The notes under the pieces: model-generated
The model's database searches: none
Told to the model about the DNA's origin: nothing
Seen by the model: only the letters and a program-made list of their open reading frames with translations
Made by a program: the position numbers and the translations under genes
From: an uncultured Mediterraneibacter sp.
GTDB taxonomy: Bacteria; Bacillota; Clostridia; Lachnospirales; Lachnospiraceae
Direction: 5' to 3'
Length of the DNA: 64,000 nt
Assembly (NCBI RefSeq): GCF_944377805.1
Contig: NZ_CALWFZ010000002.1
Coordinates: 154,059 to 218,058, forward strand
In this document: positions 3,942-55,895 of the stretch, piece after piece
Layout of the letters: every line of letters begins with the position of its first letter
Numbering within the stretch: position 1 is the first letter of the stretch

Positions 3942-3985
3942 GTGAAGGCGATGAGCCAAGTCCGGACTTGCCCGAGATCTTGGCG
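3942..3985 (+). repeat. Dispersed intergenic repeat, copy A (left half only)
   Basis: This stretch shares its start with copies at 20483 and 48788. It has GTGA-GGCGA, then AGTCCGGACTTGCCC, with CCGAGA-CTTG shared with copy B. The core CAAGTCCGGACTTG is a perfect 14-bp palindrome, and outer arms GCCAAG and CTTGGC can enclose it. It starts at the first base after the gap terminator T-run and ends about 15 bases before the pgk ribosome binding site. The right half found in copies B, C and D is missing. Confidence 0.7.
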
Positions 3986-4013
3986 CACACTAATTATGTA
4001 GGAGGCTATTAAA

Positions 4014-17852: not shown

Positions 17853-17935
17853 GCGGATGTGGCGGAATGGCAGACGCACAAGACTCAAAATCTTGCGTAG
17901 GTGACTACGTGTGGGTTCAAGTCCCACCATCCGCA
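17853..17935 (+). tRNA. tRNA-Leu, anticodon CAA
   Basis: An 83-nt class II tRNA. The acceptor GCGGATG pairs fully with CATCCGC, with discriminator A at 17935. The anticodon stem CAAGA/TCTTG surrounds loop CTCAAAA, giving CAA at 17886-17888, which reads UUG. There is a long variable arm. The T arm is GTGGG-TTCAAGT-CCCAC. CCA is not encoded. It has its own promoter and terminator. Confidence 0.97.
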
Positions 17936-17942
17936 TTGAACA

Positions 17943-17992
17943 AAATCCCGAAAGTATCGGAAATCACGATACTTTCGGGATTTTTCTTTTTG
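17943..17992 (+). terminator. Terminator of tRNA-Leu(CAA)
   Basis: A 15-bp perfect stem, ATCCCGAAAGTATCG with CGATACTTTCGGGAT around a 7-nt loop, followed by TTTTCTTTTT. Confidence 0.93.
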
Positions 17993-20406: not shown

Positions 20407-20480
20407 GAAAAGACCGGAACTGTGACTGGCAGGTACTGGGGAAAACCCGGATACCATCCAGACCGCAGGCCGGTCTTTTC
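20407..20480 (+). terminator. Terminator of the glucosaminidase gene
   Basis: GAAAAGACCGG (20407-20417) pairs with CCGGTCTTTTC (20470-20480) around a long, partly structured loop. The T-rich 3' arm abuts dispersed repeat copy B. Confidence 0.7.
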
Positions 20481-20482
20481 TT

Positions 20483-20568
20483 GTGACGGCGACAAGCCAG
20501 AGTCCGGGCTTGCCCGAGACCTTGAAGATCGCTTGCAATTCCGAAATGTGCCTTCCGGCGATAATTTT
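20483..20568 (+). repeat. Dispersed intergenic repeat, copy B
   Basis: Starts GTGACGGCGACAAGCC, continues with AGTCCGGGCTTGCCCGAGA and a right half GCTTGCAATTCCGAAATGTG, then CCGGCGATAATTTT. Compared with copies C and D it lacks about nine bases before CCGGCGAT. It lies between convergent genes, ending five bases short of the stop codon of the HAD gene on the minus strand. Confidence 0.75.
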
Positions 20569-48736: not shown

Positions 48737-48787
48737 ACCGGAGAGGAGCTGGATCGAGAGAACAGTTTCTCTCCGGTTTTGTTTTTT
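48737..48787 (+). terminator. Terminator of yajC
   Basis: ACCGGAGAG (48737-48745) pairs with CTCTCCGGT (48769-48777) and is followed by TTTTGTTTTTT. Repeat copy C begins at the next base. Confidence 0.88.
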
Positions 48788-48884
48788 GTAACGGCGACAA
48801 ACAAAAGTCCGGACTTGCCCAGCCTCCGGCGACCGCTTACAATCCCCGAATGTGACTTCTGGTATTTCCGGTGATTTACAATTT
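48788..48884 (+). repeat. Dispersed intergenic repeat, copy C (most complete)
   Basis: GTAACGGCGACAAACAA, then AGTCCGGACTTGCCC, a CCGGCGACCGCTTACAATCC block, CGAATGTGACTTCTGG, and CCGGTGATTTACAATTT. It carries both the left half (shared with A and B) and the right half (shared with B and D), about 97 bp. It lies between the yajC terminator and the leuB promoter. Confidence 0.78.
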
Positions 48885-55843: not shown

Positions 55844-55895
55844 GCGGCTTACAATCCCGGAATGTACCTTTTGGAGTCTCCGGTGATTATGATTT
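55844..55895 (+). repeat. Dispersed intergenic repeat, copy D (right half only)
   Basis: GCGGCTTACAATCCCGGAATG, split here as GCGGCTTACAATCC and CGGAATGTACCTT, followed by TTGG and CCGGTGATTATGATTTG. It aligns with the right halves of B and C. The left half is absent. It ends four bases before the -35 box of gntR. Confidence 0.72.

Follow-up and report, generated by a model that had tools for sequence, protein, structure and literature searches.

The closest described systems are the ends of IS200/IS605 elements together with the palindrome-associated elements (PATEs), the REPs with their TnpAREP (RAYT) enzymes, and the group IIC introns. In IS608, the left site TTAC goes with the guide AAAG and the right site TCAA with the guide GAAT, the guides lying 5′ of hairpins, as given in PMC5934647. 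For REPs, PMC8266576 assigns the motif GTAG a part in recognition and, probably, in the choice of the cleavage site.

The terminator-associated repeat considered here belongs to a dispersed family of elements of about 90 nt. Like IS200/IS605 ends and PATEs, it has a hairpin near each end and no visible target duplication, and as in IS200/IS605 a short motif at the left junction has a complementary guide, the left motif of the Blautia/Roseburia type being TTAC, the same as in IS608 (PMC5934647). Unlike IS200/IS605 elements and PATEs, it has no known parent sharing its ends, it strongly prefers terminators, and it carries different right hairpins under one left module; moreover, what its guide matches is the left end, although the guide itself is situated 5′ of the right hairpin. 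Since the searches found no parent sharing these ends, the repeat is not classed as a PATE. With REPs and TnpAREP it shares the character of short extragenic palindromic repeats, possibly mobilised in trans by a Y1 enzyme, with a guide 5′ of a hairpin (PMC8266576), but ACAATC or ATAACT rather than GTAG precedes its palindrome, its two hairpins are dissimilar, it lies directly behind terminators and its presence does not track that of a RAYT-like gene. Since both GTAG and the RAYT link are missing, it is not classed as a REP either. The landing site after a terminator stem and T-run recalls group IIC introns, for which PMC7923331 gives TTGT in attC cases, although the repeat is only about 90 nt long and has no detected ribozyme domains or reverse transcriptase. 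Finally, an IS200 resident in Mediterraneibacter (locus L257 and others) also targets a hairpin with a T-tail and has similar first bases (TTTTTGTAC/GTAT), but it carries tnpA and different hairpin sequences. No Rfam family matched the repeat at gathering score (one chance row fell below it, E 0.84), the group II intron models of Rfam gave no match, and no description of the family was found in the open-licence literature. As far as searched, this is a real and previously undescribed family of terminator-associated mobile repeats.

Copies in the window and in other genomes

The window, the whole 64,000-nt stretch of Mediterraneibacter DNA that was analysed, contains four copies, all on the plus strand and each starting at the first base directly after a T-run, as the initial annotation had proposed; reading of the sequence confirms this and the Pfam neighbours agree. 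The main copy, with both modules (48788..48876, from sequence reading, BLAST and a covariance-model search), lies between genes for YajC and an isopropylmalate-type dehydrogenase (Iso_dh), and its landing site is the intrinsic terminator of yajC (48737..48787, plus strand; gene assigned by Pfam), which consists of the stem ACCGGAGAG/CTCTCCGGT and a T-run. Together with the five preceding T bases (48783-48876) it scores 77.1 bits. Its start had been placed correctly, whereas its end, first put at 48884, is at 48876. According to the family structure, this copy comprises a decayed left hairpin module (48801..48830, plus strand) and a right hairpin module (48841..48876, plus strand), the latter overlapping a segment ACAATC (48839..48844, plus strand) whose role as a guide is suggested by complementarity and by comparison of guide pairs across copies: ACAA is complementary to the left end TTGT and AATC to the right end GATT. 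In our reading, the palindrome AGTCCGGACT of the initial annotation is a decayed form of the family left hairpin GTCCGGGCTTGCCCGAGAC. A promoter-like pair (TTGCCC, 17 nt, TACAAT) also lies inside this copy at 48815-48843, and some copies could serve as portable promoters.

The other copies in the window are less complete. The copy behind the glucosaminidase terminator (20483..20566, plus strand; covariance-model row 20478-20566, 65.4 bits), followed by a HAD hydrolase gene, has both modules, with a right hairpin shortened by a deletion and an uncertain exact 3′ end. The copy between the gap terminator and pgk (3942..3991, plus strand), both genes recognised by Pfam, has the left module only, its right part being replaced by other sequence, and that after the terminator of a serA-like 2-hydroxyacid dehydrogenase gene (55844..55888, plus strand), with a GntR gene as its other neighbour, has the right module only; both were delimited by sequence reading and the covariance model. 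Allowing up to three mismatches, the right-module pattern has three matches in the window against 0.02 expected. A possible fifth copy (17890-17982, E = 0.118 by covariance model) overlaps a tRNA gene and was dropped.

Genome-wide, many more copies exist. Loci in genomes G034 and G012 of the same genus are identical to records named [Ruminococcus] torques and Candidatus Mediterraneibacter pullistercoris, in keeping with Mediterraneibacter as the probable genus of the window. In the window's own assembly (2.28 Mb, 45 contigs, 92.6% complete) the covariance model gives 56 matches at E < 1e-3 and 63 rows at E ≤ 1, the E-values being rough and the 23 own copies from which the model was built matching by construction, and BLAST with 100 bases of the main copy gives 37 rows at E ≤ 10. 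The same model, under stricter filters that lose weak matches, finds the repeat in 24 of 37 genomes of the genus, with 1-56 copies each where present, but in none of 24 genomes belonging to the order's other families. Of 299 Lachnospiraceae genus representatives, 10 contain an exact core, the own genus included, compared with 0 for the reversed control, and a left-core pattern occurs in at least 117 stretches of named genomes; among the matches listed are Mediterraneibacter, Mordavella, Oliverpabstia, Coprococcus catus, Blautia, Lachnospira, Anaerobutyricum, a Roseburia MAG and others. The search among relatives of genome G192 gave no additional copies. Viral contigs contain no exact core and plasmids no match, and five unannotated gut contigs of a phage collection match the repeat, two of them carrying the full query at 95.8%.

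Hairpins, putative guide segment and boundaries

The consensus begins with the T-run, followed by G, Y, R, N, N and then GGCGACGAGCCAAAGTCCGGGCTTGCCCGAGACCTTGGCGACCGCTTACAATCCCGGAATGTGCCTTTTGGCACTTCCGGTGATT, and the element is laid out as a left hairpin, a guide segment and a right hairpin ending in GATT. The family form of the left hairpin is GCCAA.GTC.CGGG CTTG CCCG.A.GAC.C.TTGGC, and the predicted single-stranded DNA fold contains both hairpins, with a z of about −5 relative to shuffled sequences. Subterminal hairpins near both ends of one strand are indicated by the predicted folds, and by covariation. An RNAalifold consensus that paired the left with the right module was replaced by this two-hairpin structure. 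Neither terminal inverted repeats in the consensus nor a coding frame shared among copies could be seen.

The left hairpin covaries across genera. In 44 of 115 distinct left modules, hand-chosen for diversity across genera, 96.2% of the paired cells are paired and 24 cells are changed on both sides, compared with 8.1 ± 1.9 after shuffling (0 of 500 shuffles reached this number), although related copies inflate such counts; the covariation score is 0.170 against 0.088 for shuffled alignments and at most 0.060 for slid controls. Distinct changes of the stem include CGGG/CCCG to CGTG/CACG, CGAG/CTCG and CGCG/TGCG. The 23 copies of the own genome showed no covariation above shuffles, from which it follows that decay dominates in this genome and that the claim of structure rests on the cross-genus alignment.

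A second pairing involves the guide, defined as the four bases at the foot of the right hairpin. Of 139 copies, 117 could be parsed and 22 could not; in 109 of the parsed ones, the base after the last T of the T-run complements the guide's second base, so that the guide is complementary to the putative cleavage site at its third position, in a geometry that differs from that of IS608. The Mediterraneibacter type combines G after the T-run with the guide ACAA (64 of 72) and the Blautia-like type A with ATAA (42 of 45), and the three Blautia-like exceptions are all compensated (T with AAAG, T with AAAA and G with ACAG). The eight parsed copies without a Watson-Crick guide pair are all of the Mediterraneibacter type, two of them being G-T, and a decayed copy (L188) departs from the pairing as well. 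Independent switches of the guide are perhaps few, about four. Some of the left-end motif, which is ATTTAC in the Blautia type, may belong to the element itself, so that the pairing could close a stem within the element just as well as guide it to a target.

At the right end, each base of GATT is found in 129-131 of 136 distinct full copies, while the base that follows is unconstrained (T 43, G 41, A 26, C 26 of 136); this points to GATT as the right boundary and to no duplication of the T-run. TTGY or TTAC is found at the left end of most parsed copies, and there is no excess of T to the right of GATT. The cross-pattern of IS608 was also considered for the right end and fits neither GATT nor AGTT; only the plain complementarity of the terminal arms holds, AATC with GATT and AACT with AGTT in the two right-hairpin types, and in both types a single unpaired T is predicted at exactly four bases from the 3′ end.

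These two types of right hairpin are wholly unlike in sequence. Another right hairpin, CCGCGATAACTTGAGAAACTCGCGGAGCGTGTTTCTCATAGTT, stands behind the same left module in Blautia, [R.] faecis, C. catus and others, and such copies also lie mostly behind terminators. Left-only and right-only copies both occur, and several of the latter appear to have arisen by deletion between the GGCGAC repeats on either side of the left hairpin. The two separable parts described in the initial annotation are thus borne out by the joining of one left module to different right hairpins in other genera and by the single-module copies.

Placement behind terminators, mobility and the resident IS200

A sequence was scored as terminator-like if the 45 bases ending at the T-run could form a hairpin at −6 kcal/mol or below and had four or more T among their last eight. 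By this rule, terminator-like sequence is found upstream of 33 of the 37 distinct copies with a 5′ end in 1.25 Mb of the own assembly, and of 120 of 146 distinct copies from other genomes, the latter being partly drawn from the exact left-core search and so biased to well-preserved copies. Among the controls, the rule is passed by 33 of 1500 positions drawn at random, by 330 of 1500 randomly drawn TTTTT|G sites and by 5 of 37 copies when the flank beyond the opposite end is scored on the complementary strand. With genes called roughly from open reading frames (ORFs), 47 of 208 intergenic TTTTTG sites and 45 of 207 sampled genic sites pass; the comparison of own copies with the intergenic sites gives a Fisher p of about 1e-14. 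Some copies that fail the rule still look, by reading, like terminators that it missed. Orientation tracks the upstream gene, with a same-strand ORF upstream of 37 of the 46 matches in the 1.25 Mb; by the same rough call, the downstream ORF is on the same strand in 31 and on the opposite strand in 14 of 46, and in 11 of 46 a putative ORF of 100 codons or longer spans over half of the match. A replication-strand bias was considered and is uninformative, since the 38 of 46 matches that share the majority gene direction of their contig (hand tally) show about the same bias as genes.

At loci L094, L087, L152 and L066, second, partial copies lie directly or shortly behind a first copy or another terminator, as if the right hairpin had served as a new landing site. 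An isolated right-module-like hairpin followed by T bases (L105:981-1013), between what we take to be ribosomal-protein genes, is possibly used as a terminator. In the gap-pgk regions of genomes G063 and G032 (L126, L127), two species that lack the element, what comes after the gap terminator is another short sequence, TTTTGCGTGA.GG.ACAAGCCAG, possibly a further terminator-following repeat.

Comparison of orthologous sites points to mobility. The gap-pgk region was matched in 36 of 41 genomes, and of 30 loci compared, all of which keep a similar stem-loop behind gap, only that of the own genome carries the element. At a second site, the own genome has a terminator and T-run with TTGT and no element, where locus L164 carries a copy. 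The unoccupied sites compared are distant ones only, extra pairs from 0.8 Mb of genome G034 being too diverged to fix boundaries. Other sites are common to several species (L155/L105; L359, L077, L157, L203), and therefore some insertions are old or recurrent. Sampled copies, picked by the exact core, share 96.1% identity among 15 from M. glycyrrhizinilyticus and 96.6% among 8 from Mordavella, compared with a mean identity of full copies of 77.1% for 24 of the own genome and 71.9% for 11 of genome G034, a contrast from which bursts seem to be species-specific and, in the window's genome, old. Patchy copy number, the single occupied gap-pgk locus of 30, terminator enrichment and near-identical sampled copies in some species all favour the small mobile or REP-like element aimed at terminator ends that had been suggested from the window.

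The resident IS200 shares the target. A search with its left end gave matches in 4 of 41 genus genomes (20 rows). In three copies of the repeat (L062, L089, L090), an end of this type comes immediately after the right end (GATT, once GGTT), and another IS200 sits behind a Blautia-type copy at L286 (the same site as L310). The exact left hairpin is kept at 17 loci with 16 distinct left flanks (L257, L258, L261-L266, L269-L272 and L274 in genomes G034, G016 and G002; L256, L259, L260). All 16 flanks consist of a stable predicted hairpin (−11.8 to −24.5 kcal/mol) and a tail with 4-9 T in 10 bases, under a rule slightly wider than that for the repeat and without a control of its own; by reading, eleven look like gene terminators, three are the right hairpin of the repeat and two look like coding sequence, so that any hairpin with a T-run, and not specifically a terminator, may be the target. 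The first bases of the IS200 (TTTTT|GTAC, GTAT, TATA) resemble those of the repeat (TTTTT|GTAC, GTAT), and its TnpA matches transpos_IS200 at 154 bits. From the shared target and the IS200 ends behind copies it follows that a Y1 transposon with the same target taste exists in the genus, and that the right end of the repeat is a landing site.

A transposon with the repeat's own ends was sought among 72 loci from Y1/IS200 searches, a subset of the matches in draft assemblies; there was none, and only one site (L286/L310) has the element nearby. Y1_Tnp gave no match in the own assembly or in genomes G065 and G072, all with multiple copies of the repeat, but assemblies can lose multi-copy insertion sequences, genome G016 having six IS200 left ends and no Y1 gene. 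Genome G306, a single contig with one exact core, gave no IS200 hit. High-scoring Y1 genes occur in 10 of 24 positive and 7 of 13 negative genus genomes (hand tally, Fisher p 0.51), and across genera IS200 shows no co-occurrence, exceeding the cut-off in 6 of 9 repeat-positive and 10 of 20 negative genomes.

Proposed mechanism and alternative explanations

The repeat is dispersed, placed behind terminators and missing from conserved terminators at orthologous sites; hairpins are predicted in it, its left hairpin and its left-end/guide pair covary, and a resident IS200 has the same target. Together these observations lead to the reading that the repeat is probably a non-autonomous mobile element that moves as single-stranded DNA, as do IS200/IS605 ends (palindrome-associated elements) and REPs. 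An IS200/IS605-like mechanism is proposed with moderate confidence. A putative Y1 (HUH) transposase acting in trans would recognise the hairpins, and the short guide 5′ of the right hairpin (ACAATC in the main copy) would pair with the left cleavage or target sequence TTGY at the end of the T-run and, during movement, also with the right end GATT. Intrinsic terminators would be preferred since their hairpin and T-run, when exposed as a single strand, offer the target, and the right hairpin with its T bases, resembling a terminator, could become a landing pad for further elements. We infer the cleavage positions, the single-strand intermediate and transposition itself from these features of sequence. 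The wholly different right hairpins of the two main types would be odd for one transposase and count against this reading.

A different Y1 enzyme has been considered, namely a domesticated REP-type transposase (RAYT/TnpAREP) in place of IS200 TnpA, which would place the repeat among the REPs, as a Firmicutes family. Many genus genomes contain RAYT-like Y1 genes of about 260-300 aa, of which the one tested matches NF047646 at 68 bits, under the 80-bit cut-off; in 9 of 10 loci (L294, L296-L302, L304, L305) these genes presumably lie between a glycyl-tRNA synthetase-like and an M18 aminopeptidase-like ORF. One guide serving both ends would also resemble the GTAG logic of REPs (PMC8266576). Nevertheless, the guide of the repeat contains no GTAG, one RAYT-like gene adjoins a different palindrome, GGGACGTAGTAAAATT (L296), and the genes do not track the repeat in the 37 genus genomes, being present in 16 of 24 positive and 8 of 13 negative ones (16 both, 8 element only, 8 RAYT only, 5 neither; hand tally, Fisher p = 1.0), which leaves this explanation unlikely. 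A palindrome similar to GGGACGTAGTAAAATT forms the terminator in front of the copies at L408 and L415. It is somewhat harder still to credit the copies with a regulatory function, in which each would act between a terminator and the following gene as a 3′ RNA, a back-up terminator or a portable promoter. The same-strand downstream ORF in 31 of 46 matches, the sites common to different species and the −35/−10-like pair (TTGCCC, 17 nt, TACAAT; a score of at least 9 of 12 is reached by 71 of 136 full copies, but by only 9 of the 24 from the own genome) would fit such a role, whereas occupancy is patchy, 14 of 46 matches are directed into an ORF on the opposite strand, no Rfam family is matched at gathering score, and own full copies are on average 77% identical and show no covariation above shuffling. 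The conserved 3′ RNA, anti-terminator or processing module offered as the other option in the initial annotation is disfavoured on these grounds, an RNA role for individual copies being possible.

Terminators are also the landing sites of group IIC introns, from which the repeat might descend or by which it might be mobilised. The sequence immediately upstream of one copy (L165, CALWFV010000080.1, near a contig end) looks, as we take it, like a group II intron 3′ end, which suggests that several mobile elements use the same landing spot. These introns sit behind terminators or attC, many at TTGT/T (PMC7923331), and reverse transcriptases (PF00078) are present in 7 of 8 element-rich genomes tested. 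However, they are also present in 3 of 4 genomes without a model match and absent from genome G012 with its 40 copies, and an element of only about 90 nt with no Rfam intron match makes an intron origin quite improbable. An ordinary DDE-transposase MITE merely preferring T-runs would likewise be small, dispersed and without a noticeable common coding frame; given the covarying hairpin, the orientation fixed relative to the terminator, the lack of T excess right of GATT and the absence of visible terminal inverted repeats in the consensus, it can be given hardly any weight.

Returning to the single-strand mobile element, a more specific and tentative proposal, which we hold to be possible rather than probable, is that in these Lachnospiraceae repeats a DNA guide programmes landing on the T-runs of terminators, that targets have been switched by compensatory guide changes (TTG/ACAA, TTA/ATAA, TTT/AAAA), that right hairpins have been swapped under one left module, and that a terminator-like landing pad is rebuilt at the 3′ end of the element for itself and for IS200. 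If right, this would be a natural example of guide-directed insertion of single-stranded DNA aimed at transcription terminators and would leave a readable record of natural retargeting through guide changes. It would also provide a testable link between terminator hairpins and Y1 transposition, a name for an apparently undescribed repeat of several gut Lachnospiraceae, and a safe-harbour rule by which mobile repeats settle behind a gene and outside its coding sequence.
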